Positions 8,084-36,549 of a stretch of DNA of 64,000 bases are shown here, piece after piece. Below the pieces are notes generated by a model that was not told the origin of the DNA, did not search any database, and saw nothing but the letters and a program-made list of their open reading frames with translations. This DNA is from Chromobacterium haemolyticum (GTDB taxonomy: Bacteria; Pseudomonadota; Gammaproteobacteria; Burkholderiales; Chromobacteriaceae). A program made the position numbers and the translations under genes. The DNA is taken from positions 1 to 64,000 of the forward strand of contig NZ_MUKU01000020.1 of assembly GCF_002081825.1 (NCBI RefSeq), given 5' to 3'. Within the stretch, counting starts at the first letter, position 1; each line of letters starts with the position of its first letter.

Positions 8084-8254
8084 TTAAGTACCTCTCGAGC
8101 ATTTGAACAATCAATTTGTATTACCAAAAAAACAATTCTTCGAACAGTCCGCATCGGCCTGACTGAATCGCCCCGGCTTCTCTAGACACTTGTGAGCCGT
8201 TGGAAATATTGCTTCTCACACACTACTAATGTGTGATCGGGTAATCGAGACATA

Positions 8255-19890: not shown

Positions 19891-20010
19891 TGTTGGTATA
19901 GGGAAATAAGCTGTTTAGAGGATGGGCGTTCGAAATGGATTGGACGATATTTTATAGGCCAAAAATAAAAGTGCTGCTGGGCCGAGCTTGGCTTTGATGG
20001 GAGGTGAAGT

Positions 20011-20526: not shown

Positions 20527-20684
20527 TTGGGCTTTTTGATGGCCACATGTAAGAGTATTTCGGAAATAGTTCATTGTTTTGCCGTTTGATTTTACATGGC
20601 GTCATGGCTAAATGCTATTTGGTTTTTGTCATGCTGTCACGGTTATATTTTCTCAATTTTTTAGCCTCAATTAGGAATGCTATC

Positions 20685-21113
20685 ATGACTAATGCCACCA
20701 CCGGCCGTCTTGGCCGCGGTTGGGCGTTTCCGCCTGCCTTTTCCATTTCTGAAACCTATTGCGGTCCCGATATGGCCGTTGACCTGGACGACATTTGCCA
20801 GAGCTTGGAGATTCTGTTCAATACCCTGCCAGGTGAACGCATCATGCGTGCAGACTATGGCTGTGACTTGAATGCCTATCTGTTTGAAAACATCAGCGAA
20901 GACCTGTTGGCGGATATACGTCGCGCCATCAGTGACAGCGTATTGCGCTACGAGCCACGGGTGGAAGTGCTCAGCGTGGTGGCGGAACAAAGTGAACAAG
21001 AACCCACCCGGTTGAGGGTCTCACTCAACTATCGCGTACGTGGCTCGGAGGATGTCAGTCAGTTTACCGGCATGCTGGACATGCTCAATGCCGAGGGAGG
21101 GCGCCTCCGGTAA
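20685..21113 (+). CDS. eCIS baseplate wedge protein, Pvc9/Afp9-like (gp25/lysozyme-like)
   Basis: 142 aa from ATG 20685 with AGGA 8 nt upstream; a longer frame from 20574 lacks support. The sequence GRGWAFPPAFSISE, then DICQSLEILFNTLPGERIMRADYGCDL and DIRRAISDSVLRYEPRV, is the classic gp25-like pattern with an EPR motif. It forms part of the baseplate and starts sheath assembly. It overlaps the next gene by 3 nt (TAATG). Confidence 0.93.
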   Translation: MTNATTGRLGRGWAFPPAFSISETYCGPDMAVDLDDICQSLEILFNTLPGERIMRADYGCDLNAYLFENISEDLLADIRRAISDSVLRYEPRVEVLSVVAEQSEQEPTRLRVSLNYRVRGSEDVSQFTGMLDMLNAEGGRLR

Positions 21114-21532
21114 TGGATATCGTCATTGTTGATAAGGACCTGCTGCAATTCAAGCCGATGTTCGGCAACCGCAAGGTCATTCCCACTGGAGCAGCGCTGA
21201 TTCGCGGCAGCGCCCTCCCCACAGTGCAGGGACGCAAGGTGTGCTTGGCGGGCGATGAGAAAAAAGTACAGATCAATGCCATCTACACCACGCCCACCCA
21301 CACCATCCCCGGTGCCGGCGTGATCACTATTAGCAGCTTGATGCCCAATCAGCAAGCATTGCACGTCAACAGCGGCGCGGCGTGGCTGTTGAAGGGCCAG
21401 CAGTTCATCGCCCAGTTCCGCCCCACCAAGCCCGCCCAGATGCCTCCGCCGGCCAACACGCCTGATGTGCTTGATCCCAGTATTTGTCTGGGACAGTTCA
21501 TCCCCAGCCAATTCGTCGTGCGCGCAGGCTGA
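21113..21532 (+). CDS. eCIS spike-tip protein, Pvc10/Afp10-like (PAAR-like)
   Basis: 139 aa, start overlapping the gp25-like stop. It contains the PAAR-type beta pattern with INAIYTTPTHTIPGAGVITI and a Pro-rich tail (PTKPAQMPPPANTPDV). In Afp/PVC particles this protein sharpens the spike. The next gene starts 23 nt downstream. Confidence 0.8.
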   Translation: MDIVIVDKDLLQFKPMFGNRKVIPTGAALIRGSALPTVQGRKVCLAGDEKKVQINAIYTTPTHTIPGAGVITISSLMPNQQALHVNSGAAWLLKGQQFIAQFRPTKPAQMPPPANTPDVLDPSICLGQFIPSQFVVRAG

Positions 21533-21555
21533 AAGCAATAGAAAGCTCACTCATT

Positions 21556-24500
21556 ATGTTGAACCTGAACCAGATATTCGATGGTGCGGCCTTTGCGCTG
21601 GACCCGCGCAGCATTGAAGAAACGCTGCGCAATTTCAAAGCCTATGTCGCGTTGATCCCGTTTGACGCTGACAACTATTGGGACAAGGTCTTCTTCCCCC
21701 ATGGCGACGACGATATTGCCATTCTTGCGGCGCGCTATCGCTCACCCGAACTGGCCGATGGCGAGCTGCCTCCGCAGCAAGGTTTTTTGTTGGCCTTTCT
21801 ACGGCAATTGGAAACCCCTAAGGCATTGCTCAATGACTTGCCTGACCGACACCGCCAGCTCTACTACCGCGAGCTACTGGGCCTCACTCCGCACACGGCA
21901 CAGCCCGACCAAGTTGCGGTCTCCTTCGAACTCTCGTCCGGTGTGGTGGAAACCCTGCTGCCCGCCGGCACCGCGCTGGACGGCGGTCAAGATAGCCAGG
22001 GCCAGGCATTGCGTTACCTACTGGACGCACCATTACAGGCCAATGCCGGCCGGCTGAGCGGACTGCATTGGGCGCGCCCCGCGAAAGAAGGCGTGCTGCG
22101 CCATACCATCCAAAGTGATGCCTTGCCATTTCCTGAGGGCGGTGTGCGCCTGTTTGCCGCTCAAGACCAGGAACAGGTCGCGGCCACCGGCCGGGTCGTC
22201 GCGGCGGAGATTCTGGCGCTATCCAGCGGCCAGCGTACCTTCAGCGTCACCTTCGCTGAGAAGGTTGGCGCGGGCGAGTTGCGGGCGGCGGTCAGCACGG
22301 ATAAGGGCTGGCTGAACCTGCCCACCGTGACGCTGGTCGCGGATGACAACAGCGCTGTCTTTACCCTGGCTGCCGACCAGGCCGCCATCGTTCCGCCACA
22401 AGGGCTGGACGGTTTTAACGACCCGGTGCCGCTGCTCAAACTCAGCCGCGCGGATGGCAAGGAGGTGCCGGCGGTCACCAAAATCGAGGCCAGCACCACC
22501 CAGCCTAGTGACATCGTCTTTAGCACTCAGGACGGCGTCGCCCAGCCAGACCAACCCTGCCTGCCATTTGGCGCCGAGCCGCTGCAGGGTGCCTGCGTGC
22601 GGCTGATGGCGCCGGATTGGTGTCGCAAGTCGCAAGCCATCACCGTGACGCTGACGCCGGAGTGGCAACAGCTGCCCGAGAAGGATTTCAAAGGCTGGTA
22701 TCAAGGCTACACCGGGCAGCCAGCGAACAATGAGGCTTTCACGGTCACACCGCAGCAACTTACCGCCAATGGGTGGGAGACACTAAAGGGGAGTGAGAGC
22801 CTTGCGTTGTTCGAGGCCGGTAACGGCGCACCTAAGGGCATGCCTCTGAGCTTCTGCTTCCCCCCGCTGACGGGCGCCATCGTTGACAGCGCCGACCCCA
22901 CCCGTTGGAACAGCCAGTTGCGCCTGGTTCTGGAGCCGCAAACCTTTCTGCACCAGGAGTATTGGCAACAAGTCAGCGCGGGCGAAACCAAGTTGAACCC
23001 GCCCTACACCCCGCAGTGGGCTGGCTTGGCGATTGCTTATGCCAGCGCTCAAGACATTGCAAGCAGCGCGCAATACCGGCTCACCCCCTTCGGCCACCAG
23101 GCCGCGGGCGACACCGTGGGCGCGCCGGCACAGCCACAACTGTATCTGGGCCTGGAGGCGATGCAAGCCGGCCAGCAACTATCGCTGTACTGGAAGTTGC
23201 AAAGCCCGCAGCCGCTCAGCATGGACTGGCAATACCTGAACATCGACAACCGCTGGGCCCCGCTCAATGCCAGCGTATTGGACAAGACCGGCGGCCTGTT
23301 CGAATCCGGCCTGTGGTCGGCCACGCTGCCGGCCGATGCCAGCGATCAGGCGGCACAGATGCCGGCCGGTAGCCACTGGCTGCGTGCGGTGATGACGCCC
23401 TGCGCTCCTTCCGGTGGCGCCGAGTCGGATTATCCACAACTGCAAGGCTTGCTGGCGAATGCCATGACCGCCACGCTGGCCGAGGTGGATACCGTGGCGG
23501 TGGACCACTTTGCCCAAGCCCTGCCCGCCGGCAGCGTGACGCAAACCGTCGAGTCCCTTGCCGGCCTGGCTGGCATGACGCAGGCTTGGCCATCGCAGGG
23601 GGGGCTGCCGCCGGAAACGCCGGATGATTTCAACCGCCGCGTGGCGAGCCAACTGCAACACCGCGGCCGCGCGCTGCGCCGGAACGACTTGCACGCGCTG
23701 TTGAGGGAACAGTTTCCGGAAGTGGGCGCTGTCATTCTTCCCGAAGACGCCGGCACGCCCGGCGAGCAAGCGCTGATTGCGATCCCGGCGGCCGGCCTGC
23801 GTGATAACGACGATGCGAGACGGCCGGCTTTCAACCCGGCCCGCCTGGCGCGGATGAGCGCCGCGATGCGGCAGCGCACTTCGCCGTGGGCGGAGATCTC
23901 CGTGAAAAACCCGCAATATCGCATCGTGGATGTCTCCTATCAGGTGGAGTTTGTCGCGGCGGTCAGCGACGACTATGGCTATCGCCAACTGAGCGAGGCC
24001 TTGTCGCGGCAATACATCCCATGGGCTTGGCAGCAGGGGGAGTCCATCCAGGTAGGCAATCAGCTGGATTACTACCAACTGCTGCACACCATACAGGCAC
24101 AGCCTTACGTCAAGACCGTCACCGCGTTGACCTTGGATGGCGGGCAGCAAAGCGTGCAAGCCCTGCCGGGCGAGGTATTGCTGCCGGGCATGCCCGAGAC
24201 GGGCGGGATCTCCGGCTTCAGCCTGACACCGGTGGGCGAAAAGCGGCTGCGGTTTAGCTGGAATAAAAACATGGATGCCGAGCGTTATGCGCTGTATGCC
24301 GGGGACAGCTGTTTGGCATCGGACCTGACCGGTCATGAGTATACGCTGCCCTTGGATACTGCCTGGCAATACCCGGAGGGAACCGTTTTTAAACTGGGTG
24401 TGGAGAACAACAATATTGAGGCCCCCATACCACTATCTCAACGCCATCTTCGTGGTATGCGCGCTATTTTAACGCCAAGCGATATGGCAATAGATGCAAG

Positions 24501-25482
24501 TTATGGACAGGCCCTTGCTCTTAGTTCGGATGGATGTGTGGCTGCTGTATCTGCGCCAGCCCTGAAAAATAATTTAGGCGCGGTGTATCTATTTAAACGT
24601 GAAAACGATGGCTGGAAGCAAGGGCAGAAATTGGTTGGTATGGAGCCTCAAGGTCGTTTTGGCGAGAGTGTCTGCTTGAGTGGGGATGGTCGACGGCTGG
24701 CTGTTTCGGCTGCTGGTGCGTCACAAGGTGGAAGAGTATATATTTTTGATGTGGGTGATGGAGAGGTCTATGTAAAAACTCATGAATGGGACGGCGTGGG
24801 AAGTACGCAGGGAAGCTCTCTTTCCATGAGCCGGGATGGCAAAAGAGTGGCCGCTTCCGCTCAAGGTGCGGATGAAAAGTGGGGGGTGTATTTTAGCGAT
24901 TTTAATGGCGGCGGGTGGAGTGATTTTCAAGGTGTTGATTTAGAAAGTAATGATGCCAGTAATCCAATGGTTCGTATCAGTGGGGATGGCTCTGTTTTGG
25001 CGGTAGTGGCCAAAATGGATCAACCATGTACTGTGTATAGAATGTCAGGTAATGACTGGGAAAAAGACAACGAAGAGGATTGGTTTGCAATGAATCATGG
25101 CTATTATCCTGGTTCCATTCCAATGGATTTTAGTGGGAAGGGTGTCGTGATTCGTGGCCATGAAGGTACATCGAAAGGGGTAGTTTATATTTATAACAAA
25201 AAATCAGATTGGACAGAAGTGAAGTGTAAAAGCCATGAGTGTGACAAGGATTATAATCGCTTTGGTAGCGGTATGAGTGCTATCGCGGATAATGGTTATT
25301 TTGCCGTGACATACGATAATGATAACTCCTGGAATGGTTTCGAGATTTGGCATGTGGATGATGCAAAGTTTGTGGCTGCTATTGAAATGGCTGCAGAAAG
25401 AAGCCAAGCAGGCGCAGCGGCTCTGGATGGCGCAGGGAAGGTCGTGCTGATTAATACGGGAAAAGAGATTGCCGTTTATTAA
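21556..25482 (+). CDS. Baseplate protein Pvc11/Afp11-like (gp6/gpJ) fused to FG-GAP-like beta-propeller
   Basis: 1308 aa from ATG 21556 (upstream start at 21484 rejected, since it lies in the PAAR gene). Residues 1 to about 890 are the large eCIS baseplate protein (ALDPRSIEETLRNFKAYV; QLYYRELLGLTP-like opening; ETPDDFNRRVASQLQHRGRA near 690), related to phage gpJ. A fibronectin-like segment (LTPVGEKRLRFSWNKNMDAE) leads to about 340 residues with repeating blades such as GQALALSSDGCVAAVSAPAL, FGESVCLSGDGRRLAVSAAG and SSLSMSRDGKRVAASAQGAD, the integrin/FG-GAP-like propeller pattern. DNA from about 24430 onward is clearly AT-richer, suggesting the propeller was acquired separately. Confidence 0.85.
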   Translation: MLNLNQIFDGAAFALDPRSIEETLRNFKAYVALIPFDADNYWDKVFFPHGDDDIAILAARYRSPELADGELPPQQGFLLAFLRQLETPKALLNDLPDRHRQLYYRELLGLTPHTAQPDQVAVSFELSSGVVETLLPAGTALDGGQDSQGQALRYLLDAPLQANAGRLSGLHWARPAKEGVLRHTIQSDALPFPEGGVRLFAAQDQEQVAATGRVVAAEILALSSGQRTFSVTFAEKVGAGELRAAVSTDKGWLNLPTVTLVADDNSAVFTLAADQAAIVPPQGLDGFNDPVPLLKLSRADGKEVPAVTKIEASTTQPSDIVFSTQDGVAQPDQPCLPFGAEPLQGACVRLMAPDWCRKSQAITVTLTPEWQQLPEKDFKGWYQGYTGQPANNEAFTVTPQQLTANGWETLKGSESLALFEAGNGAPKGMPLSFCFPPLTGAIVDSADPTRWNSQLRLVLEPQTFLHQEYWQQVSAGETKLNPPYTPQWAGLAIAYASAQDIASSAQYRLTPFGHQAAGDTVGAPAQPQLYLGLEAMQAGQQLSLYWKLQSPQPLSMDWQYLNIDNRWAPLNASVLDKTGGLFESGLWSATLPADASDQAAQMPAGSHWLRAVMTPCAPSGGAESDYPQLQGLLANAMTATLAEVDTVAVDHFAQALPAGSVTQTVESLAGLAGMTQAWPSQGGLPPETPDDFNRRVASQLQHRGRALRRNDLHALLREQFPEVGAVILPEDAGTPGEQALIAIPAAGLRDNDDARRPAFNPARLARMSAAMRQRTSPWAEISVKNPQYRIVDVSYQVEFVAAVSDDYGYRQLSEALSRQYIPWAWQQGESIQVGNQLDYYQLLHTIQAQPYVKTVTALTLDGGQQSVQALPGEVLLPGMPETGGISGFSLTPVGEKRLRFSWNKNMDAERYALYAGDSCLASDLTGHEYTLPLDTAWQYPEGTVFKLGVENNNIEAPIPLSQRHLRGMRAILTPSDMAIDASYGQALALSSDGCVAAVSAPALKNNLGAVYLFKRENDGWKQGQKLVGMEPQGRFGESVCLSGDGRRLAVSAAGASQGGRVYIFDVGDGEVYVKTHEWDGVGSTQGSSLSMSRDGKRVAASAQGADEKWGVYFSDFNGGGWSDFQGVDLESNDASNPMVRISGDGSVLAVVAKMDQPCTVYRMSGNDWEKDNEEDWFAMNHGYYPGSIPMDFSGKGVVIRGHEGTSKGVVYIYNKKSDWTEVKCKSHECDKDYNRFGSGMSAIADNGYFAVTYDNDNSWNGFEIWHVDDAKFVAAIEMAAERSQAGAAALDGAGKVVLINTGKEIAVY

Positions 25483-25624
25483 AATTGTAATGATTGCTCC
25501 TATTGAGTCTCGGCTCGGTAGGGGCTGTCATACAGCATGGCTCATGATTAACTGCACGGCCTCATTATATATATTGTGGCAAATGATTTTTTTGTGTATC
25601 ACGGACTAACAAATTGGTTCCCAC

Positions 25625-28450
25625 ATGACAACGACCAAAACACAAGCTACCGCTACCGACTTTCAATCAATCCACTTCGATGCCCTGTGGTCTCAGGCGC
25701 AGGAGACCTTGGCCACGCAGTCCGGCAAAATCTGGACCGACACCGCCGAGCACGACCCCGGCGTCACCCTGCTGCAAGCGCTGACTTATAGCGTGTCCGA
25801 CCTGGGCTACCGCCACACGCTGCCGCTGGTGGACTTGCTGACCCCCGAGCTGGAGCAGCGGAGCCAGGATGGCCTATTCCCTGCAAGCTTTGGCCCACAC
25901 CAGGCGCTGACCGTATCACCCATCACCGAGGACGACTACCGCCGCGCGCTGCTGGATTTGAGCGCTGGCGATGCCGAGAGCCCCCAGCTGCTGTTCCGCA
26001 ATGCGCGCCTGCTGCGCGAAGCCCCGGCTGAGCAATACCGCTACTACTTCGACGCCAAGCAGCGCGAATACCATTTCACCGCCGTGGATGGGCAAGCGCA
26101 AGAGCTGGCGGTGCAAGGCGCTTACCGGCTGCAAGTAGAGCTGAACCGCGATATCACCCAAGCCATGGCGGAGCCCGTCTTGCTGACGTTTTTGCACAAT
26201 CACCGCAACCTTTGCGAAAGCGTGCGGGCGATAGACTGGTTGACCGCGCAAGATGTGGACGTCGACATCACGCTGGAGCTGGAGGACGATTTTCAGGACT
26301 ACGCCGCCTTGCTGGCTCAGCTGTACCTGGCCGTGGAACACCATATCAGCCCGCAAAGCGAGCGGGCCTCGGCCGCGCAGCTGCGGGCGCGGGGCCTGGA
26401 CAACCAGGCCATCTATCAGGGCCCTGAACTGCGGCATGGCTGGATCAGCGTTTTGCCACCGCTGGCGGCCTATGATGAGGGGCTTGAGATTCGCTTGAAT
26501 CCGCTGGTGACAACACTGCAGACCATGACCGGAGTCAAAAGCCTGCAAACGCTGGGGTTCAACAAGGCTGGATGGGGGCTGGCGCTTAAGCCCAAACAAT
26601 ACGCACTGCTGTGGGGCAAGGACCCGCTGCAAAGCCTGGCGGATGGCCAGCGGGTCAAGCTGATGAAGCGCGGCCAGCAGATCAAGGTGACGAAAGCAGC
26701 GATTCAGGCGGCATTGCCCGTCTCCGCCGTGCAGTTGGAGGCGCCAGTTACCCTGCCTTATGGCCGCCACCGCCACCCGGCGCGCTACTATCCGGCCAGC
26801 GACAAGATCCCGCCATGCTACCAACTGCAAGCCGAGACGGATGATGGCAAGGTTAAACACTTGCACCAATACCTATTGCCTTTTGAACAAGGGCTGGCCA
26901 ATGCGTGCGAGCAACTGGCGCTGCTGCCCAGCCTGCTGTCGTTCCAACGCGAGGCGGATCAGAGTCCTTACCCCGTGTGGGGCGGCCAATGGCCTTTTGC
27001 CGCGGACAGCGTGGCCGATAGCGTGCATGACGAGTATCGAGACCGCTTGCAACAGGAAACCGCAAGCCAAAACGATAAGGAGGCGCAGGAACTGGCCTTG
27101 CTCAATCACCAGTTAAGTCTGTTTGGACAGCAACGCGCGGATCGCACGCTCTTGAACGCGCCAGATTACCTGGCCTCGCAGCGCGCCTATCTGAGCCAGA
27201 ACAGCCAACTGCACTATCAAGCCGGCCAATACCGTGCCGACGTCATCAGCGCCGCGCAACGCCGCATCGCCGCGCGCCTGGGCATGGATCAGGGCGTTTT
27301 CGACAACGATGGCGAGTTGAGCAAGCTGCCGTTCTACCTGATCGAACATCGCGCGCTCCTGCCCAAGCAACCGAACCCCGCTTACACCAGTTGGCAAGCT
27401 ATCAAACGGATAGAGTCGGCGGGGGAGGGGACACCAAAAAGCTTGCAGCTGACCGTTGACGTTAAGCTGAGCGATTTGCAGCCCGGCCAATTACTGGAAC
27501 TGCAATACACCGCCACGGCAGTGAAGCCGGTGCTGTTGTCCGCCTGCGTGGTGACGGCGGTGGACACCGCGGCCAAGCGCATCACCCTGGAGCTCAACGC
27601 GCAATTGCGCTCCTACCTGGACGAACTCATCGATTCAGATAATTGGGCCAAAGTGCAATGGCGCAATAGCTCGCTATGGCTGCAGGACATCAGTTTCCCC
27701 TTGCAATACCTGGCTGCGGACGATCCGAAACGCTCGCCCTTATTGGTGCCGGAGGAGGGCCAGCGCATCGTGACCGTGGACAATTTCCCAGCCCAGCTGG
27801 CCCCAGGCGACGAGATTATCCTCTATCGCCACAACGGCCCGGATAAGGCGAAGCCCGCCGCCAAGCAAGCGAATGAGGACGTGGCTGCCCGCGTGGTGGA
27901 AATCGACGCCTTGCGCCGCCAAGCGCTGATTGAGGTGCTTGACCAGGGGCCGGAGCTGCCGCAGGAAGCGCACCAGACTGCTTATCGCTGGTGTGTGTCG
28001 CGCACGGATCTGGCAGACCGTTTCTCCTTTACCGTCAGCGCGGTGTTCAATGAAGCCTTGCTCCTGGGGGAGCAGAGCCAGGTGGTGAACCCCTCCGTCA
28101 CCGAGGCCTGGGTGCGCCGCATTGTGCAGGATGAACTGCCCTGCCATGTGCGCGCCGAACTGCACTGGTTGGAAGCCGGCTACTTTGGCGGCCTTGGCTA
28201 CAGCTATGCGGCTTGGGCCGCCGGCGGTGCCAATATGGGCCGGCAAGCGTTTGATTTGCTGTGGCAACTGGCGTTGGGCATGCTGCCGTCCGGTCTGCAA
28301 GGCATTAACGCGATGCGCATCGCCACCGCCGCGCAACGCAGCGCCGTGGTGGGGGAAAATGAAACAGAATGGAATACTGGCCCCATCATGGAAAACAGCC
28401 TGCTCTATGTGCCTCCGGCGCAGCAGGCACTGCCACGCTCTGAATTCTGA
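25625..28450 (+). CDS. Baseplate protein, Pvc12/Afp12-like
   Basis: 941 aa. The N-terminus (DALWSQAQETLATQSGKIWTD ... HDPGVTLLQALTYSVSDLGYR) is the conserved start of Afp12/Pvc12 proteins, which with the Pvc11-like protein build the baseplate wedges around the hub. The C-terminus (EAWVRRIVQDELPCHVRAEL) is also typical. Unlike the tightly coupled genes upstream, it lies 142 bp after its neighbour, so it may have its own promoter. The start has no strong ribosome site. Confidence 0.88.
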   Translation: MTTTKTQATATDFQSIHFDALWSQAQETLATQSGKIWTDTAEHDPGVTLLQALTYSVSDLGYRHTLPLVDLLTPELEQRSQDGLFPASFGPHQALTVSPITEDDYRRALLDLSAGDAESPQLLFRNARLLREAPAEQYRYYFDAKQREYHFTAVDGQAQELAVQGAYRLQVELNRDITQAMAEPVLLTFLHNHRNLCESVRAIDWLTAQDVDVDITLELEDDFQDYAALLAQLYLAVEHHISPQSERASAAQLRARGLDNQAIYQGPELRHGWISVLPPLAAYDEGLEIRLNPLVTTLQTMTGVKSLQTLGFNKAGWGLALKPKQYALLWGKDPLQSLADGQRVKLMKRGQQIKVTKAAIQAALPVSAVQLEAPVTLPYGRHRHPARYYPASDKIPPCYQLQAETDDGKVKHLHQYLLPFEQGLANACEQLALLPSLLSFQREADQSPYPVWGGQWPFAADSVADSVHDEYRDRLQQETASQNDKEAQELALLNHQLSLFGQQRADRTLLNAPDYLASQRAYLSQNSQLHYQAGQYRADVISAAQRRIAARLGMDQGVFDNDGELSKLPFYLIEHRALLPKQPNPAYTSWQAIKRIESAGEGTPKSLQLTVDVKLSDLQPGQLLELQYTATAVKPVLLSACVVTAVDTAAKRITLELNAQLRSYLDELIDSDNWAKVQWRNSSLWLQDISFPLQYLAADDPKRSPLLVPEEGQRIVTVDNFPAQLAPGDEIILYRHNGPDKAKPAAKQANEDVAARVVEIDALRRQALIEVLDQGPELPQEAHQTAYRWCVSRTDLADRFSFTVSAVFNEALLLGEQSQVVNPSVTEAWVRRIVQDELPCHVRAELHWLEAGYFGGLGYSYAAWAAGGANMGRQAFDLLWQLALGMLPSGLQGINAMRIATAAQRSAVVGENETEWNTGPIMENSLLYVPPAQQALPRSEF

Positions 28451-28568
28451 GCATGACGTGGCACGCGGCCTTGCGAATGCCACACTATTCCCGTTCGCTG
28501 TGTGGACAGCGCCCACCTCATATCGGGCGGCCCGGAGCCGGACCGCCTCGTTGACAAAGGAAAATTAA

Positions 28569-29615
28569 ATGAGCAAATCCAAACAGAATAATCCAGCCTC
28601 CGTCGTCGCCCTTAAGAGCCCCGCGGCGGCGGACCTCAAAACACGGTTCCAAGCCCAGTCCATCCCCTTGGAGAGCGATTTTGCCCAGCTGATCGACATG
28701 GCCGATGCCGGCTATCTCGCGGTAGGGAGTGACACGGGTACTCCGGGTGAGGGCTTGGCGTTGGACCAGGGGAAGCTGAAGGTCAAGGCCGGCAATGGCA
28801 TCACCGTGGCGGCGGGGGGCGTGGAGGTGAAGCCGAACGCGGCTTTGGGTATCACTGTGGATGGCAATGGGGTGGGAATCAAGACAGATAAGAAGCACGG
28901 CACGGAGGTCGATAGCAATGACAAGGCCTTGAAGGTAGCCTTGTCGGGGACGTCGGGTTTGACGCGGACCGAGACTGGCCTGGCGGTCAAGACTCCCAAT
29001 GGTTCCGCCATCTCACTAAGAGCAGAAGGCATTGCGGTGAAGGTGAATACTGCGAAAGGCATCGTCATTGAGGAAGACCAGTTGGCGTTGAAGCCGAACG
29101 TGGCTTTGGGCATCAAGGTGGATGGCAGTGGAGTGGGGATCAACACCTCGAAGGGTAATGGCTTGGACGTGGCCTCCAACGCCTTGAAGGTCGCCGTGTC
29201 AGGGACGAATCCGGGTTTGGAGTTGAAAAGCGATGGCCTCGCGTTGCATGTACAGAAGGGGAGCGGAGTTACGGTCGGTAAAGATGGACTCGGTATCGAC
29301 GCGGTCAGACTTTACGGGTTAGCTATAGGTGCTACAGAAGTCGGCGAGATCTCGGGCGCGTATCTGTATGCAGGAAGGTGGTTTACTGGGGGCAGGTGGG
29401 TACAGTTTGTGGGAAGGCGTGTTAAGAATGTGGAGGTGAAGGATGCGAGTAGTATGCGGATATGGTGGGGGGCCCCTGAAGGTAAGGAAAGAGTTGCGAT
29501 GTACATGGAGGTGAAGGACGGTCAATGGGACGACTTTAAACGTGATGCTGATTTTTCGGTTCAAGTGGCATGGGGCGCTAGTGTGGGGGGCAAGGCAAAA
29601 TGGCGTAATTTGTAG
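28569..29615 (+). CDS. eCIS tail fibre, Pvc13/Afp13-like
   Basis: 348 aa, AAGGAAAA directly ahead of ATG. Residues 40-240 are short beta repeats with alternating G-I/L-x-V patterns (AGNGITVAAGGVEVKPNAAL, then LGITVDGNGVGIKT, LGIKVDGSGVGINT), like adenovirus fibre shaft repeats seen in Afp13. Residues about 245-348 form a separate end domain (YLYAGRWFTGGRWVQFVGRR ... VAWGASVGGKAKW) probably used for target binding. The gene stops 1 nt from the stop of the convergent reverse transcriptase. Confidence 0.85.
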   Translation: MSKSKQNNPASVVALKSPAAADLKTRFQAQSIPLESDFAQLIDMADAGYLAVGSDTGTPGEGLALDQGKLKVKAGNGITVAAGGVEVKPNAALGITVDGNGVGIKTDKKHGTEVDSNDKALKVALSGTSGLTRTETGLAVKTPNGSAISLRAEGIAVKVNTAKGIVIEEDQLALKPNVALGIKVDGSGVGINTSKGNGLDVASNALKVAVSGTNPGLELKSDGLALHVQKGSGVTVGKDGLGIDAVRLYGLAIGATEVGEISGAYLYAGRWFTGGRWVQFVGRRVKNVEVKDASSMRIWWGAPEGKERVAMYMEVKDGQWDDFKRDADFSVQVAWGASVGGKAKWRNL

Positions 29616-29616
29616 G

Positions 29617-30591
29617 TCAGAGAGTGCGGGGCGTTGTGGTTCTTTTCCCCATCTCCCATCTCCGCAGATAGGCACCAACGCGCCCATCCGACGCGCCTTG
29701 CTCATAAAGCCGGGCTATCCGCTGGTCGCGTCGGTGCAGGGAACTGGCGGTCGGGCGGCATCCGTCCGGGTGAAACTGCCAGCCGAGAAAATCGAAGCCA
29801 CGGCTGATGCGACCGATGAAGGTTTTATCCGGATGCTGGCGCAGTGTCAAGCCGTTTAGGATCGAGTTGACCCGCGCCACGGCGCGGCGCAGCTGGCCGT
29901 GGCTGCGGCACAGGACCACCCAATCGTCCATATAGCGCACGTAAAACACATCGCGCTGGGTCATCGCCTGGTCCAGGCTGTCCAGGTAGAGGGCGCCGAT
30001 CAGCGGAGACAAGGAGCCGCCGCGGCAGATGCCGCGCCGCATGCTGTGAAACAGACCGCCGTCGCACAGGGTGCAGCTCACATAGTCATAGAGCAGGCGC
30101 AGGACTAGGGGGTCGGGAAACGCATCGGCCAGCATGGGGAGCAATAGGGTGTGATCGATATTGGCGTAATAACCCCGGACATCAGTGCGGAAGACGTATT
30201 CGTATTCACTCAGCGCCGCGCGCACCCGTCTTAACGCGCCAACGACGCCGCCATGGCCGGCCAGATGGGTGCAATGCGGCGAAGCGCGTGGCCGCCAGGC
30301 AGCCCCCAGCGTTTGACTGAGCGCCCGCAGCGTCAAGGCATCGGCGGCGTCCCACCACAGGTGGTCGCCATCCTCGCAGCGCCGTATCTGGAGCGGCCCC
30401 AGCCGGTAGGCGCCATCCCGCCACTGTTGCTGGAGACGCGCCTTATGGCGTGGCCAGTCGTGTCGCAGCCACCAGACATCGTCGTTGTGGTGGTAGCGCC
30501 GGCGCCGCCGGCACAGCCAGTGATAGGCGGCGTCGATATTATCATCGGCGGCCATGCGCTGGATCAGGGAGAGCGTCATCCCTGGCAGCAT
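29617..30591 (-). CDS. Reverse transcriptase (RVT_1), unassigned class
   Basis: 324 aa. RT motifs in order: basic N-terminus; motif 2 region with FRTDVRGYYANIDHTLLL (first catalytic Asp); RGICRGGSLSPLIGALYL (group II-like GxxxSP block); YVRYMDDWVVLCRS (YMDD active site); and HPDKTFIGRISRGFDFLGW (motif 6-7 region). About 75 residues follow, too short for a maturase plus endonuclease. The SP, not SQ, motif argues against a diversity-generating RT. It is on the opposite strand, 1 nt from the fibre stop, inside an otherwise one-directional eCIS block. Possible roles: domesticated group-II-like RT, defence RT, or fibre-linked function; none is shown. Confidence 0.88.
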   Translation of the reverse strand: MLPGMTLSLIQRMAADDNIDAAYHWLCRRRRRYHHNDDVWWLRHDWPRHKARLQQQWRDGAYRLGPLQIRRCEDGDHLWWDAADALTLRALSQTLGAAWRPRASPHCTHLAGHGGVVGALRRVRAALSEYEYVFRTDVRGYYANIDHTLLLPMLADAFPDPLVLRLLYDYVSCTLCDGGLFHSMRRGICRGGSLSPLIGALYLDSLDQAMTQRDVFYVRYMDDWVVLCRSHGQLRRAVARVNSILNGLTLRQHPDKTFIGRISRGFDFLGWQFHPDGCRPTASSLHRRDQRIARLYEQGASDGRVGAYLRRWEMGKRTTTPRTL

Positions 30592-30643
30592 AAGCGTTGT
30601 TGCTGGGTAGGGCCAGGGTGGTGCGAGTGATATTTTGATCTAA

Positions 30644-30783
30644 GAGCCAGTTCAAAGTCTGCTGCGCTTCGGCGATACGGCGTTAAAAACAAGCTCAAAA
30701 TGCTCATGTACCACTTGTACATTCCGCTTTTTCGCTCGTTTTCGTCTTGTCTCGCTCTTGCTCGCGAGACTTTGAACAGGTTC
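30644..30783 (+). repeat. MITE-like element, copy 1
   Basis: 140 bp bounded by TAA on both sides (30641-30643, 30784-30786). The ends are inverted repeats beginning GAGCCAGTTCAAAGTCT on the left and, on the opposite strand, GAACCTGTTCAAAGTCT on the right. The core has the shared ATGCTCATGTACCAC block. It lies between the start of the reverse transcriptase and the tape-measure gene and ends 14 bp before that gene's GTG, so it may influence its expression. Confidence 0.85.
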
Positions 30784-30799
30784 TAAGAAAAGGAAGCAT

Positions 30800-32221
30800 G
30801 TGTCCCACTCTCCCGCTCGCATTCAGCGTTTTAGCCTGCAACTGAGCACACCCGCTGTGCTGGCCCAGTCGCTGCTGCCCCGCGGCCGTCGGCTGTTGCA
30901 GCCTAGCTTATTGGCTCAAATAGGCTTGCTGTTAAGACGCTATCCGCCGTTCCCCGAGCCACTGGCTTGCCTGAGGCTGGATCTGGGCGTGCTGCAGAAT
31001 GCGCAGTTTGAAACCGAGCTGCCGCGTAGGTTGCTGGCGGCTTTGCAGACGCAGCTGGATCAGCAGCTTGCCGAGGCTGAGGGCGGGCCGCGGCCGGTCT
31101 CCGCGTCCTTGCCGGCCCGGTATTGGTCTGGCGGCGTTGGCACGGAGTGGTGGCCGGAGGGCGAGCGACCGGATCCCTCTTTTGATGGCGCTGCCGATGC
31201 GAGGCTGCCGTCATCCGGTGCGGCGCCGCTGCTGAAGCCAGCAGACGAGGGCCATGGCGGTAGCGAGGCGTGGCCGCCTGGCTTGGCGAGCAGAGAGGGC
31301 AGCGGAGACGAGCCGGTAAGGGCCGCCGCGTGGCCGGAAGCGCTGTCGCTGGCGGATTGGCGGCAGTATCTGTACAGCGGCTATGCTCCGCCCCCGCTGC
31401 GGCAGGTGCTTAAGACAGGTTCAGACCACTGGCTGCGGGCCTTGTTGGCGGCAGACCTTCAGTCCAGCCGTGCTCTGCTGGCCCGCCTGTGTTTGCAAGC
31501 TACGCCGCTGGCGCGGATCATCGCGGAATTTGCCGCGCCCGTGTATGAGGTCTTGCTGGCACCGTCAACGGGGGAGCGATTGACAGCAACAGATGTTGAC
31601 CTGGCCGCCGCTTTGTCGTCAGCGGCATGGTGGCAAACATCACAAGCCGTGTCGCGATGTGAGGAGGTAAGCGATACCACCCAGGGAGACGCGTTATCAG
31701 GATGCTTGGCGGCGTTGCCACCGCGGATGGAGGTGGATAACGCGGGCTTGCTACTGCTATGGCCCTTATTACCGACCTGGCTGCGGCGCTGGGGCTTTCT
31801 GGAGCAGGATGGTTTTGTCAGCACGGCGGCCCAAGCGCAGGCGATAACCTGTTTGGACGCCTGGTTGTGGCGTGATTCGGCCCGCGCGGAATGGCGTACA
31901 CCCTTCACCAAATTGCTGTGCGGCTGGCCTTTGGAGCAGCCCTTGGGTCCATGGGCACGGCCGGAGGACGACTGGCTGAGCAGCCTGGATGAGCTGCTGC
32001 ATGAGGCCTTGGCGATGGTGCCCAGCTGGCGGCGTTGCGGCGTGCAGGATATCCGCCACTGGTTTTTGCAGCGTCCCGGCGTGTTGATGGCGCGGGATGG
32101 GCATTGGCAACTGGATATTGAGGCCGAGGCCTATGATATTTTATTGCGTGATTTTCCATGGCCGATTAAGCAACTGAGTTTGCCCTGGATGGCGCAAAGC
32201 ATAACGGTGAACTGGGGCTGA
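30800..32221 (+). CDS. eCIS tape-measure protein, Pvc14/Afp14-like (CIS_TMP)
   Basis: 473 aa from GTG 30800, with AAGGA 5-6 nt upstream. It opens with IQRFSLQLSTPAVLAQSLLP and contains a variable Pro/Gly/Glu-rich middle (about 95-175). The conserved C-terminal core has the family signature NAGLLLLWPLLPTWLRRWGF followed by FTKLLCGWPLEQPL. The family sets particle length. It is on the same strand as the main operon but is separated from it by the reverse transcriptase and a MITE-like element, so it probably has its own promoter or depends on read-through. Confidence 0.87.
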   Translation: MSHSPARIQRFSLQLSTPAVLAQSLLPRGRRLLQPSLLAQIGLLLRRYPPFPEPLACLRLDLGVLQNAQFETELPRRLLAALQTQLDQQLAEAEGGPRPVSASLPARYWSGGVGTEWWPEGERPDPSFDGAADARLPSSGAAPLLKPADEGHGGSEAWPPGLASREGSGDEPVRAAAWPEALSLADWRQYLYSGYAPPPLRQVLKTGSDHWLRALLAADLQSSRALLARLCLQATPLARIIAEFAAPVYEVLLAPSTGERLTATDVDLAAALSSAAWWQTSQAVSRCEEVSDTTQGDALSGCLAALPPRMEVDNAGLLLLWPLLPTWLRRWGFLEQDGFVSTAAQAQAITCLDAWLWRDSARAEWRTPFTKLLCGWPLEQPLGPWARPEDDWLSSLDELLHEALAMVPSWRRCGVQDIRHWFLQRPGVLMARDGHWQLDIEAEAYDILLRDFPWPIKQLSLPWMAQSITVNWG

Positions 32222-32308
32222 TCGGGAAAACGATGCGGAGTCGCATGGTGTATACCGTGCCGATGCTGGGGCTGGTTTTTATTTGGCGCGGGTCATAGTT
32301 TGGGTTTT

Positions 32309-32336
32309 TTGCCCACAGGTCCAAACGGGGTATGAT
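32309..32336 (+). promoter_or_regulatory. Probable promoter of zapE
   Basis: TTGCCC (32309-32314), 16-bp spacer, TATGAT (32331-32336), about 42 bp ahead of the zapE ATG. The fit to sigma-70 is good. Confidence 0.5.
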
Positions 32337-32377
32337 GTCAGGCCGTACGTTTATTGCGCTTGCACACTCCGCCGCCC

Positions 32378-33541
32378 ATGTCTCAGCACACTTTCTCCCC
32401 GGATGGGAACGCCCATCTCAGCCCCAAGGCCTGGTATCAGGCCGCCAGCGAAAAACCCGGTTTCATTCACGACGCGGCCCAGGCCGCGGCGATCGAGGAG
32501 CTGGACCTGCTGTGGCACCAGCTGGTGGAGTTCAAGAACAAGCGCAACCGCTTCCTCGGGCGCAGCCTGCGCAGCCCGGACGTGCCCAAGGGCCTGTATT
32601 TTTGGGGCGGGGTGGGGCGCGGCAAGAGCTTTCTGATGGACGCCTTCTACGCCTGCGTGCCTTACCGCCGCAAGCGCCGCATTCATTTCCACAATTTCAT
32701 GGCCGAGGTGCACCGCGAGCTGCGCGCGCTGGCGGGCAGCAAGGACCCGCTGCTGGCCTATGCCGACAAGATCGCGCGCGACACTCGCCTGCTGTGCTTC
32801 GATGAATTCCACGTCAGCGACATCGCCGACGCGATGATGCTGGGCCGACTGCTGTCGGCCTTGTTCGAGCGCGGCGTGGTGTTGGTCACCACTTCCAATT
32901 ACGCGCCGGATAGTCTCTATCCCAATGGCCTGCAACGGCAGAACTTCCTGCCCACCATCGAGTTGATCAAGCGCGAGCTGAAAGTGCTGAACGTGGACGG
33001 CGGCAACGACTACCGGCTGCGCGAGCTGACGCGCGAACCGCTGTTCATGGTGCCCGCTGACGCGGCCAACGAGGAGAAGATGGAGCAGCTGTTCCAGCGC
33101 CTGAGCCACGGCGTGGAGCAGAAAAAACGCTCCATTGAGGTGCTGGGCCGCGAGATTCCGGTCAAGCGCCTGGCCGCCGGGGTGATCTGGTTTGATTTCC
33201 TGGCCCTGTGCGACGGCCCGCGCGCGCAGACCGATTATCTGGAAATCGCCACCGAATACCATACCGTCTTCGTCAGCGGCATCCCCAGGATCACCGCGCG
33301 CGAGGCGTCCATCGCCCGCCGCTTCACCTGGCTGGTGGACGTGTTCTACGACAACCGCGTCAAGCTGGTGGCCTCCGCCGCCGCCGAGCCGGAACAGCTG
33401 TACACCGAAGGGGTGCAGGCCGGCGAATTCTTCCGCACCGCCAGCCGGCTGACCGAGATGCAGTCGCGCAGCTATCTGGAACTGCCGCACCAGTCCGTCG
33501 GCCAGACTCACGACCAGCCGCCGGCCGGCGTGGTGCTGTAA
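32378..33541 (+). CDS. zapE: Cell division protein ZapE (AFG1-like ATPase)
   Basis: 387 aa from ATG 32378 (MSQHTFSPDG); the frame extends to a TTG at 32354 without support. Walker A GGVGRGKSF, Walker B LLCFDEFHVSDIADAMML, and the sensor segment VLVTTSNYAPDSLYPNGLQR are diagnostic of the AFG1/ZapE P-loop family. In other bacteria ZapE binds FtsZ and acts at the constricting septum under stress. It marks the return to backbone genes after the eCIS region. Confidence 0.95.
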   Translation: MSQHTFSPDGNAHLSPKAWYQAASEKPGFIHDAAQAAAIEELDLLWHQLVEFKNKRNRFLGRSLRSPDVPKGLYFWGGVGRGKSFLMDAFYACVPYRRKRRIHFHNFMAEVHRELRALAGSKDPLLAYADKIARDTRLLCFDEFHVSDIADAMMLGRLLSALFERGVVLVTTSNYAPDSLYPNGLQRQNFLPTIELIKRELKVLNVDGGNDYRLRELTREPLFMVPADAANEEKMEQLFQRLSHGVEQKKRSIEVLGREIPVKRLAAGVIWFDFLALCDGPRAQTDYLEIATEYHTVFVSGIPRITAREASIARRFTWLVDVFYDNRVKLVASAAAEPEQLYTEGVQAGEFFRTASRLTEMQSRSYLELPHQSVGQTHDQPPAGVVL

Positions 33542-33553
33542 ACGGCCGCGGAC

Positions 33554-34135
33554 GTGGACGCCGACGGCCTGCTGCAAGAAGTGCGCGCCTGTCGGCTGTG
33601 CGCGGACAGCCTGCCGCATGGCCCGCGCCCGGTGCTGCAATGGCATCCGGACGCGCGCATCCTGATTGCCGGCCAGGCGCCGGGGCGGCGCGTGCACGCG
33701 TCCGGCCTGCCGTTCGACGATCCCAGCGGCGAGCGCTTGCGCGACTGGCTGGGCGTGGACAAGACGGTGTTTTACGATGAGACCCGCATCGCCATCCTGC
33801 CGATGGCTTTCTGTTACCCCGGCACCGGGAAGTCCGGCGATCTGCCGCCGCCGCCGCAATGCGCGGCTGCCTGGCGCCAGCCCTTGCTGGCCGGCCTGCC
33901 TCATCTGCAATTGACGATTTTGCTGGGCCAGTACGCGCAGCGTTATCACTTGCCGGGCCGTTATCCGCGGCTGACCGAGGCGGTGGAGCGCTGGCGCGAG
34001 CACTGGCCGGCCTTGCTGCCCTTGCCGCACCCCAGCCCGCGTAATCAACTGTGGCTGCGCCGCCATCCCTGGTTCGAGGCCGAACTGCTGCCGGCTTTGC
34101 GGCAGAGGGTGGCAGAGGTGCTGGAGCGCGGCTGA
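33554..34135 (+). CDS. Uracil-DNA glycosylase family protein
   Basis: 193 aa, GTG start 12 nt after zapE. It contains VRACRLCADSLPHGPRPVLQW, then ILIAGQAPGRRVHASGLPFDD (the GQAPG motif of the UDG fold) and LPLPHPSPRNQLWL near the end (HPSxRN, the second active-site motif). The group lacks the four-Cys iron-sulfur set of family 4 enzymes and resembles the UdgA-like clade of unknown lesion. The TGA stop is also the left flank of a MITE-like element. Confidence 0.88.
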   Translation: MDADGLLQEVRACRLCADSLPHGPRPVLQWHPDARILIAGQAPGRRVHASGLPFDDPSGERLRDWLGVDKTVFYDETRIAILPMAFCYPGTGKSGDLPPPPQCAAAWRQPLLAGLPHLQLTILLGQYAQRYHLPGRYPRLTEAVERWREHWPALLPLPHPSPRNQLWLRRHPWFEAELLPALRQRVAEVLERG

Positions 34136-34278
34136 GAACCTGTTTACGATCTGCTGCGCGCTGTGAAACGTGGCTCGGTGAGTGCAACTTCGAAATGCTC
34201 ATGTACCACGTGTACATTCCGCTTTCTCAGCCGTTTTCGCCTTGTCTCGCGCTAGCTCGCGAGATCGTAAACACGTTC
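34136..34278 (+). repeat. MITE-like element, copy 2
   Basis: 143 bp, starting GAACCTGTTTACGATCTGCT right after the TGA stop of the glycosylase gene and ending AGATCGTAAACACGTTC before TAA (34279-34281). The ends are about 18-bp inverted repeats. The middle carries a near-palindrome ATGTACCACGTGTACAT. It would fold into a long hairpin in the mRNA. Confidence 0.9.
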
Positions 34279-34319
34279 TAAGCACTATTCACCATCAATG
34301 GTTTTCCAAGGAGGCTGCA

Positions 34320-35216
34320 ATGTGGCGACGCTGGATCTGGAATGGCAAGCAATGGTTGTTTGACTGGGGCGTGCGCCAGCAGCGGCGCTGGGCCGGGCTA
34401 AAGCCGCGGCGGCGCAGGCTGGAGCAGGGTGAGTTGAGCTGGTTGGAGCGCGCGGCGCCGGCCGGCGCGCCGGTGCTGGTGTTGTTGCATGGCTTTGGCG
34501 CGGAAAAGGATCATTGGGCGATGCTGGCGCGTCGCCTGCCCAAGATGTTCCGCCTGATCGCGCCGGATTTGCCCGGCCACGGCGATAGCATGTCCGGTCT
34601 GGACATCAGCTACCGGGTGGAGGCGCAGGCGGATCGGCTGCGCGCCTTTCTGGATGTCTGGGGCGTGGAGCATGTCCACTTGATCGGCAATTCCATGGGC
34701 GGCGCCATCGCCGCCAACTTCACCGCGCGCTATCCGCGGCAGGTGGCCAGCCTGACCTTGTTGAATGCCGCCGGCGCCGGCGACAGCGCCAGTGAAATGG
34801 CGGAGTGGTGGCGGCGCAGCGGCGAGAACCCGCTGCTGGGCATGACTAGCGCGGACGGGGTGCGGGCGATGCTGGACTGGGCGATGTACCAGCCGCCGCC
34901 GGTGCCCGGCTTCGCCATCGAGGTGACGGCGGCGCGCAAGGCGGAACGCGTCGAGGTGGAGCGCAAGATTTTCGACGATCTGTTGGACAGCGTGGACCAG
35001 CGGCCCTTGCTGGCAAGCATTCAGACGCCGACCTTGATCGTCTGGGGCCGAGAGGACCGCATCCTGCACGTGGAGGACGCGGATTGCTTCGCCGCCGCCA
35101 TCGCCGGCAGCGAGAAGCGGGTGCTGGAGCGGGTGGGCCATCTGCCGATGATGGAACAGCCGCGCCGGGTGGCGGAGTTGTGGCTGGATTTTGCGCGGCG
35201 GCAAGCCGGCGTCTGA
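34320..35216 (+). CDS. Alpha/beta-hydrolase fold protein
   Basis: 298 aa from ATG 34320 with AGGAGG 7 nt upstream; longer frames begin inside the MITE and are rejected. Oxyanion motif VLLHGFGAEKDHW, nucleophile elbow HLIGNSMGGAIAAN (Ser), acid in WGREDRILHVEDAD and His in VGHLPMMEQP complete the catalytic triad. The sequence resembles lipase/esterase-type members; the substrate is not predictable. An N-terminal hydrophobic/aromatic stretch (WRRWIWNGKQWLFDWG) may bind membrane. Confidence 0.88.
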   Translation: MWRRWIWNGKQWLFDWGVRQQRRWAGLKPRRRRLEQGELSWLERAAPAGAPVLVLLHGFGAEKDHWAMLARRLPKMFRLIAPDLPGHGDSMSGLDISYRVEAQADRLRAFLDVWGVEHVHLIGNSMGGAIAANFTARYPRQVASLTLLNAAGAGDSASEMAEWWRRSGENPLLGMTSADGVRAMLDWAMYQPPPVPGFAIEVTAARKAERVEVERKIFDDLLDSVDQRPLLASIQTPTLIVWGREDRILHVEDADCFAAAIAGSEKRVLERVGHLPMMEQPRRVAELWLDFARRQAGV

Positions 35217-35226
35217 GAGTCTGTTT
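35217..35226 (+). repeat. Possible solo end of a MITE-like element
   Basis: GAGTCTGTTT directly follows the TGA stop of the hydrolase, matching the MITE terminus GAGCCTGTTT with one difference. No second end is seen before the next gene. It may be a decayed or deleted copy, or chance. Confidence 0.3.
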
Positions 35227-35274
35227 CCAAGCGCCGCGAGCGGCACGACTCCCCCGTCTTGACGCCGCCAGCCC

Positions 35275-36549
35275 TCAAGCCGCCGGCCTGGCTTGTGTTT
35301 GAGCCGTCGTGACGGCGTCCCCTCGCAGCAAGGCCAGGCCACAGGCGATCACCACCACCTGGGTGCCTATCAGGCTGGCGAAGCCCATGGTGAAACCGCC
35401 GCCGCTGTCGCCGCTGAGGCTGATCAACCAGCCCATGAGCACGGGCATGAAGCCGGCGCTTAGGCCGCCGACGCCGTTGGTGATGCCAAAGGCGCAGGCC
35501 ACGTGCTCCGGCTGAGCATAGTGCTGAATGGTGCTGGGGATGGCCGGGCTTTGCAGCCCCCAGCACAGGCCGGCGGCGGTGAGGCAGTAAGCGGCCGTGT
35601 AACGGTCCGCGCTGTTGATCGCCAGCAGCACCGCCAGCGCCACGCCCAGGCTGGCCAGGATGAAGATCAGCGGCACGCGGCGGCGCGGAATCAGGTCCAG
35701 CAGCAGGCCGCCCAGCAGCACGCCCAGCACCACCGCGTATTGCGGCAGCGATGCCAGCCAGCCCATTTCCCGCAGCGAAAAGCCGCGTGCTTGTTGCAGA
35801 TACGCCGGCAGCCAGTTGCTGCTGCCCCATAAATAGGCGAGGAAGGCGGCGGTGAGCGCGGTCATGGTCAGGATGTGGCGGGTGTGGAAGGCCCCCCGGA
35901 ACAGATCGGCCACGGTGGCGAGCGCGGCGCGCGGGGACTCCGGCCGCGGCAAGGCGGCGTAAGAGGCGGGCATGCGCACGAAGGCCAGCACCAGCGGCAC
36001 GCCCAGCAGCACATTGAGCAGACCCAGCAGGTGGAAGGACGATTCCCAGTCCAGCAGCGCCACGGTGTAGCCGATCAGCGGATAGCCGACGGCCAGCCCG
36101 AGGCCGGTGCCCATATTGAACAGGGCGTTGGGCTTGCCGCTTTCCCCGCTGTCGAAGTGGGCCTTGATATAGGAGGAGCCCAGCGCGAACAGCGGCCCTT
36201 CGGCGAAGCCGAGCAGCGCGCGCGACGTCAGCAACATGCCGTAGCTGTTGAACCAGGGCGAAACAAAGGTGATCAGCCCCCAAAGGCACAGCCCGTAGAT
36301 CAGGCTGCGGCGCACGCCGAACAAAGCGGCGCAAAATGGGGTGAACAGGATGGCGGACAGGCCGTAACCGGCCATGAAGGCGGTGGCCAGCAGCCCTTGC
36401 GCGCCGCGATCGTGCACGGTGATGCCCAGGTGGCGCAGAAAGTCGTTCTGGGTGATCAGCACCGCGATATTGATCCGGTCGACGTAGGAAATGGCGACCA
36501 CCAGGAACAGCGTGGCCACGCCCAGCCAGCGTTGATTGCGTGTGTTCAT
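35275..36549 (-). CDS. MFS transporter, anion:cation symporter (ACS)-like
   Basis: 424 aa, about 12 hydrophobic segments. It begins RNQRWLGVATLFLVVAISYVDRINIAV, the typical ACS-family first helix with a conserved YxDRxN; loop 2-3 has FGVRRSLIYGLC. Members import organic anions such as sugar acids and aromatic acids. It is last in the catabolic operon, 138 bp after the reductase gene, and is likely the substrate importer. Confidence 0.9.
   Translation of the reverse strand: MNTRNQRWLGVATLFLVVAISYVDRINIAVLITQNDFLRHLGITVHDRGAQGLLATAFMAGYGLSAILFTPFCAALFGVRRSLIYGLCLWGLITFVSPWFNSYGMLLTSRALLGFAEGPLFALGSSYIKAHFDSGESGKPNALFNMGTGLGLAVGYPLIGYTVALLDWESSFHLLGLLNVLLGVPLVLAFVRMPASYAALPRPESPRAALATVADLFRGAFHTRHILTMTALTAAFLAYLWGSSNWLPAYLQQARGFSLREMGWLASLPQYAVVLGVLLGGLLLDLIPRRRVPLIFILASLGVALAVLLAINSADRYTAAYCLTAAGLCWGLQSPAIPSTIQHYAQPEHVACAFGITNGVGGLSAGFMPVLMGWLISLSGDSGGGFTMGFASLIGTQVVVIACGLALLRGDAVTTAQTQARPAA

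Follow-up and report, generated by a model that had tools for sequence, protein, structure and literature searches.

The window analysed here comprises 64,000 nucleotides of Chromobacterium haemolyticum DNA (contig NZ_MUKU01000020.1, positions 1 to 64,000), and it carries a gene block for an extracellular contractile injection system (eCIS) in which a reverse transcriptase (RT) gene of the UG4 class lies antisense between the fibre and tape-measure genes. Components matching sheath, baseplate V, gp25, spike tip, tape measure and AAA proteins were found, and judged by this gene content the locus is a true eCIS. The Afp13-like fibre gene (28569..29615, + strand, 348 aa), recognised from its open reading frame (ORF), Pfam and relatives, can be divided on the same strand, with approximate boundaries, into an N-terminal part conserved among relatives (28569..28770), a repeat-bearing shaft (28771..29300) that resembles adenovirus shafts at a score below the Pfam cut-off, and a head (29301..29615) that is the putative variable, target-binding tip. 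This head abuts the 3' end of the RT gene (29617..30591, - strand, 324 aa), and in the ORF map the two stop codons are separated by a 1-nt spacer (29616..29616). An earlier, sequence-only reading had placed the RT in just this antisense position, 1 nt from the fibre stop and between fibre and tape measure, and the coordinates confirm it. An Afp12-like gene (25625..28450, + strand), 55% identical to its counterpart in the congeneric genome G012, lies 5' of the fibre; the tape-measure gene (30800..32221, + strand; Pfam CIS_TMP, 174.9 bits) lies beyond the RT, and a miniature inverted-repeat transposable element (MITE; 30639..30788), about 148 bp long and bounded by 22-nt inverted ends, occupies the interval between RT and tape measure. 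One Afp-type locus of Serratia has the tape measure following the fibre, and no RT piece was found there, so the RT represents an insertion relative to the Serratia Afp order.

The RT frame is intact, with YMDD at residues 220-223 and a GGSLSP motif, although the family alignment suggests that the conserved start may be an inner Met at codon 5. Three aspartates (D137, D222 and D223) do not vary across the 13 rows of the family alignment, and the RT core is complete with its catalytic aspartates. The Pfam scan returned RVT_1 alone (58.4 bits, cut-off 29.6), with neither a maturase nor a nuclease domain found, in agreement with the sequence-only description of a complete RT lacking a maturase domain. 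The PADLOC RT_UG4 profile was the top match at 349.2 bits, against 132.7 bits for the runner-up model, a score that speaks against a chance ORF; by sequence, the RT belongs to the known class UG4 (PADLOC RT_UG4; myRT UG4), whose members are likewise short and maturase-free. It is the sole RVT_1 match in the 5.29-Mb genome (E 0.001). The AlphaFold model has a mean pLDDT (predicted local distance difference test) of 89.4, and its closest fold neighbour is the GsI-IIC group II intron RT, followed by G2L4 RTs and those of diversity-generating retroelements (DGRs); GsI-IIC RT is also the closest solved structure by sequence. Unlike group II intron and G2L4 RTs, however, the window RT has no maturase domain, and it scored 113 bits with the NCBIfam group II intron RT model, below the cut-off of 300. 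No intron RNA was found by Rfam within 20000-36000, where the lone match fell far under its gathering score, nor was there an Rfam match for an msr/msd RNA beside the RT, a family that Rfam may lack.

The position of an RT beside a receptor-binding fibre had invited comparison with DGRs, and the RT model does resemble DGR RTs, with template modelling (TM) scores up to 0.80. DGR RTs carry SQ in motif 4. The window RT reads GGSLSP there, as already noticed from the sequence, and the searches of the own genome described next yielded no template repeat for the variable fibre end. A DNA search with 28480-30800 gave 53 matches in the 40 of 376 candidates that were scored, namely the window and 52 matches confined to the MITE, most of them 80-96% identical and some representing both strands of one copy; when the MITE was excluded (28569-30600), the window matched alone (40 of 110 candidates scored). 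In a protein search of the genome in which all candidates were scored, fibre and RT each matched only themselves. The longest repeats of the locus lie in the fibre shaft, and relatives of the locus change whole segments (see below). In view of these results, of the UG4 profile score far above those of other models, and of the convergence of RT and fibre, a DGR acting on the fibre head is most improbable, and we take it as refuted for this genome, barring a template in an assembly gap or among the unscored candidates. The MITE, identified from the genome DNA search and its repeats, is not specific to the RT and also accounts for the strong RNA fold 5' of the gene (z -3.5); an upstream non-coding RNA (ncRNA) was rejected as a candidate on this ground, and the structured RNA suspected near 30592-30643 overlaps the MITE at 30639-30788, which has many other copies.

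Comparison of 19 genomes of the genus linked the RT to the injection system. The tape measure was matched in three of them (G000, G010 and G012) and the fibre in two (G000 and G012). A loose RT search gave matches in seven; full UG4 RTs were present in G000 and G010, and G012 retained a 3'-terminal remnant (residues 232-322, with two stops). The RTs of G004, G005 and G016 scored 77-94 bits, against 398-412, and were taken as other classes, and a 27-residue match in G006 (E 0.005) was set aside. UG4 sequence and tape measure hence coincide in the same three genomes, for which the chance is 1 in 969 if the genomes are assumed to be independent, which they are not fully. In two of the three, UG4 sequence stands at the fibre 3' end: the G012 remnant, 68.7% identical in DNA to the last ~250 nt of the window RT, is convergent with the fibre and ends ~18 nt from the fibre stop, and next to its broken 5' side lies an ORF for a transposase that looks IS3-like by eye. 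The N-terminal parts and shafts of the window and G012 fibres are alike, and the match between their heads is limited to 55 residues at 25%. The RT of G010 is ~5.6 kb away from the tape measure and faces, at ~470 nt, a 251-aa protein. This protein is homologous (35%, E 6e-32) to the C-terminal portion of the eCIS_core protein of an Oscillatoria (L027), which itself faces a partial UG4 RT.

The abutment of the RT 3' end on a gene for a surface or injected protein extends far beyond the genus. We surveyed 48 non-redundant loci with near-complete UG4 RTs, labelling layouts and partners by hand, and found 12 convergent, 18 codirectional and six fused layouts, together with 12 loci without an assigned partner. 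At 27 of the 48, the gene against which the RT 3' end lies is supported as coding for a surface or injected protein; support here means a Pfam match, annotation, operon context, homology, or a tail that is in frame, looks secreted and is anchored. These partners are the window fibre, two Tc toxin B proteins (L011 and L012; SpvB, TcdB), three inverse autotransporters or invasins (L032, L061 and L087; by Pfam for L032 and by annotation for all three), a collagen protein (L048), 14 partners in fimbrial operons and six fusions. Pfam was run on seven of the fimbrial partners and gave Fimbrial for L063, MrpH_C for L160, a match below cut-off for L060 and none for four; sub-cut-off matches (the fibre shaft, Fimbrial_K88 at L033, MrpH_C at L060 and Lcl_C at L048) were kept as hints. 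The six in-frame fusions (L113, L114, L117-L120) all come from one order and read by eye as RT, a signal-peptide-like hydrophobic stretch formed by the last RT helix, a Cys/Thr-rich domain and a C-terminal anchor; in the one scanned with Pfam the RT was the sole match, and a search for homologues of the fused cassette without the RT gave a few weak matches (best 51 bits besides the query). Partners at three further loci (L020, L051 and L161) were judged by eye, and the candidate identification of the L020 partner as LamG was dropped, as its Pfam scan matches nothing. Further partners come from loci whose RT is partial or frameshifted: PEP-CTERM proteins (L163, L165, L169 and L170), a pore-forming domain (L028), an M35 peptidase (L029), the eCIS_core protein of L027, the L033 partner with Fimbrial_K88 just under cut-off, and small proteins with signal-like starts by eye (L019 and L025). 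As a control, the genes on the 5' side of the RT were inspected at 10 chosen loci and proved mostly ordinary (primase, DUF4351, polyphosphate kinase, MFS, DUF948, HTH, ParE, two unknown and one Tc toxin A); this control is valid for non-fimbrial loci only, and fimbrial operons flank the RT on both sides.

Part of this pattern has been foreshadowed in the literature. Fimbrial domains have been described as neighbours of UG4 in 66% of cases in complete genomes, and a UG4-like RT from Bacillus thuringiensis lacks them (PMC8934634). Fimbrial neighbours are thus usual and not defining for UG4, and the window RT differs from the described members in having eCIS genes, including the fibre, as its neighbours. 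What that account, as far as it was available, does not include is the 3'-end pattern, the segment replacement described below, the fusions, and partners that are invasins, Tc toxins, eCIS proteins or PEP-CTERM proteins. UG4 was restricted to Proteobacteria in the data of another study (PMC4244168), and the cyanobacterial loci in our set extend UG4-like RTs beyond that phylum. Within the available portions of the literature on UG4, on RTs with injection systems, fibres, fimbriae or adhesins, on inverse autotransporters and on tip exchange, we found no report of the 3'-end pattern and no reported function for UG4 RTs.

Pairwise comparisons of near relatives revealed that the segment next to a conserved RT is replaced or strongly diverged, and that the distal part of the gene often stays alike together with the RT. 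In all 14 chosen locus pairs, which have loci in common and are not independent, the blastn match breaks off where the RT core ends or close by. Between the Salmonella plasmid loci L032 and L087 the RT is 95% and the first part of the invasin 85% identical, and the 3.1 kb in between are unmatched; in L032/L108 the unmatched stretch starts at the RT end, measures 1.3 kb and reaches into the invasin, and in L032/L109 ~0.6 kb beyond the RT are unmatched. The border at the RT end is identical in the first two pairs and lies ~190 nt further out in the third. In the Escherichia albertii pair L085/L086 the RT is 98% identical, the match breaks just within the adhesin, and 77% identity returns in a later part of the adhesin. 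The two fused loci L113 and L114, in the same genome, are 92% identical in the RT (976/1059) and 77% in the anchored tail (198/258), against 56% (104/187, plus 31 gapped columns) in the segment after the RT, and in L118, L119 and L120 DNA identity likewise ends at the RT end. L067 and L110 are near-identical throughout and thus uninformative on segment change. Extra copies of the RT end were also observed: at the 3' end of a second invasin in L087 there is a convergent, 483-nt, 3'-terminal RT piece, 97% identical; L121 has an extra 3'-terminal RT copy; and in L116 (G388 C11; oriented 7628-8110) the RT 3' end runs into tandem repeats of the final part of the RT gene, with a period of ~161 nt and 105 nt at 98% identity.

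A comparison on the 5' side narrows the candidates for a template. The E. albertii loci L085 and L067 share an RT block at 98%, with the 3' side unmatched; L085 has ~1 kb extra between operon and RT, and L067 has 27 nt only between the common operon block and the common RT block. This gap leaves no room for a conserved RNA gene, and what remains is the RT message together with the abutting gene. The result bears on the proposal, raised in the sequence-only reading, that the gene is a defence RT, which would act against phages and lie by chance in adhesin and eCIS loci. UG4 is grouped by PADLOC with the defence-associated RTs (DRT), and DRT1 and Abi RTs have been described as template-free, which shows that a neighbouring RNA is dispensable for a defence RT. 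A neighbouring ncRNA has been described for DRT2, DRT9 and DRT10, for which L067 has no room, and the nameable neighbours of UG4 RTs are mostly surface or injected protein genes; we regard a defence role as improbable. The orphan group-II-like RT that was the second option does not fit the UG4 class or the lack of an intron RNA in the searched span, and the third, a function linked to the fibre, is best supported, also by the remnant at the G012 fibre end.

In many UG4 loci the RT 3' end is linked to surface and injected protein genes, and between near relatives the segments beside it are replaced or strongly diverged. To explain both, we tentatively propose, with somewhat less than even confidence, that the UG4 RT may form a tip-exchange module with the tip-coding end of the fibre. 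Transcription of the RT gene would continue past its end, across the adjoining tip segment and into the conserved distal portion of the partner gene, and the RT would copy this read-through RNA of its own, which in the window locus would be the fibre antisense. In the resulting cDNA a tip would be flanked by the RT 3' end on one side and by conserved gene sequence on the other, and this cDNA could recombine into another allele or a related gene, so that the tip is swapped; we infer the RT as the cause, its own RNA as the template and cDNA recombination as the route. As in DGRs, the RT would be associated with that end of a fibre or adhesin which binds the receptor, yet no template and variable repeat pair was found, relatives replace segments and the RT is convergent with the fibre. 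It is more doubtful, though conceivable, that UG4 RTs in general write tip cassettes from a read-through message into adhesin, fibre and toxin genes across fimbriae, invasins, eCIS, Tc toxins and phyla. The pattern, which runs from Salmonella plasmids to cyanobacteria, turns the proximity of UG4 to fimbriae into a testable hypothesis on tip renewal and places a UG4 RT in a new setting, the eCIS fibre, with retro-copying as a hypothetical model; if the RT is indeed the agent, reverse transcription would have a non-DGR route to diversify binding proteins.

The closest rival is a selfish, homing-like RT element that invades tip genes and co-converts the tips without direct gain for the host. Loci L035 and L079 have only the RT block in common (94%), with both flanks different, as such an element would leave, and partial RT copies exist: 16 5'-truncated pieces (two more at contig ends), four 3'-truncated and one internal were listed. 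By hand, both L022 rows (an insert-split RT and the insert's own RT), L055 (another RT) and L027, L171, L172 and L083 (N-terminal divergence or frameshifts) were set aside, which left nine 5'-truncated pieces, and removal of L022 left three 3'-truncated ones. The 'full' RT list of 67 from the same count holds the window three times (the window, L069 and L073). Phage homing nuclease genes have been described at the borders of exchange (PMC10448857), and the UG4 RT similarly edges exchanged DNA segments; it differs from them in being an RT instead of a nuclease and in residing in bacteria and plasmids. The Pfam and Rfam searches given above found neither a nuclease domain nor an intron RNA, and the bias towards surface and injected genes would need a separate reason, such as tolerance of insertion. 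We consider a homing-like element rather unlikely.

Alternatively, tip loci may recombine often and gather genes, and an RT of other purpose would then be a hitchhiker that merely serves as a conserved recombination border. A border at the RT end is trivial if selection keeps the RT, and third-position divergence is patchy along the RT in several pairs, as recombination within the RT would leave. Against this, contact of the RT 3' end with such genes recurs in many lineages and takes three layouts. On the RT tree, where the window and L011 group with full support and long branches leave the deep joins unsure, the convergent layout requires at least six changes and the codirectional layout four, on starred branches with hand labels, which suggests that the layout was rebuilt several times if those labels are right. 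Hitchhiking appears unlikely to us.

Several observations weigh against tip exchange by the RT. Ordinary homologous recombination between the conserved RT and conserved gene sequence would produce the same pattern of blocks. Among RT relatives the ratio of nonsynonymous to synonymous substitution (dN/dS) is 0.07-0.21 in 13 of 14 pairs, indicative of purifying selection, a conclusion that we limit to the relatives and do not extend to the window's own RT, for which the sole pair (with L011, distant and GC-rich) gave 0.56, a value that is not trusted. No 3'-ward gradient of third-position divergence was seen along the RT (means by sixth over the listed pairs.29.23.21.20.23.20), and the idea of an identity gradient as a sign of recopying from the RT 3' end was not borne out by it. 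The truncation counts are biased, as loci were found mostly via motifs in the 3' half. On the RT strand there is one weak terminator-like site within the RT end (29796-29814), where 2.1 sites would be expected by chance, so such sites are fewer than chance. Six partners are of unknown or unrelated kind (L015, the transposase of L018, L022, L050, L115 and L062), and 12 loci have none assigned (L013, L014, L016, L017, L021, L023, L024, L049, L079, L112, L116 and L162), three of them at contig ends (L016, L023 and L024). In addition, the supported partners are interdependent, including 14 fimbrial operons and six fusions of one order, and where the partner is a PEP-CTERM protein, it is the conserved anchor, not a variable part, that borders on the RT.

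Further observations concern the distribution and surroundings of UG4 RTs. Class-wide, the UG4 profile matched nine of 369 genomes at E 1e-40, the window included. In the order of G050, 11 of 42 genomes (the centre genome among them) had matches at E 1e-30, often several each, although some were weak (108-123 bits) and may be other RTs or fragments. UG4 RTs or their pieces are annotated as 'transposase' or 'type I restriction-modification system subunit M' in CP013914, CP056643, CP057208 and NZ_LR778141. Between the fimbrial genes and the UG4 RT of L082, on a plasmid of E. marmotae, the stretch 2666-6499 holds a series of small ORFs and of ORFs that resemble adhesins by eye, which are mutually unlike (blastp, E 1e-3). 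A cyanobacterial UG4 RT (L022, 4549-7926) is split by an insert, possibly a group II intron, that encodes an antisense RT. A 995-aa RT with long extra parts beside a small ORF, Cas2-like by eye (L124; G425 C86), is probably a CRISPR RT and not UG4.

In the window itself, the fibre head had no match in phages or viral contigs, and when the fibre was compared with 40 plasmid records the best placement per record stopped at or before residue 286 of 348; the predicted model of the head has a mean pLDDT of 39.5. Beside the eCIS block a 2247-aa protein with internal repeats and no Pfam match is encoded at 1340-8083 (- strand), and it is possibly a large injected effector.
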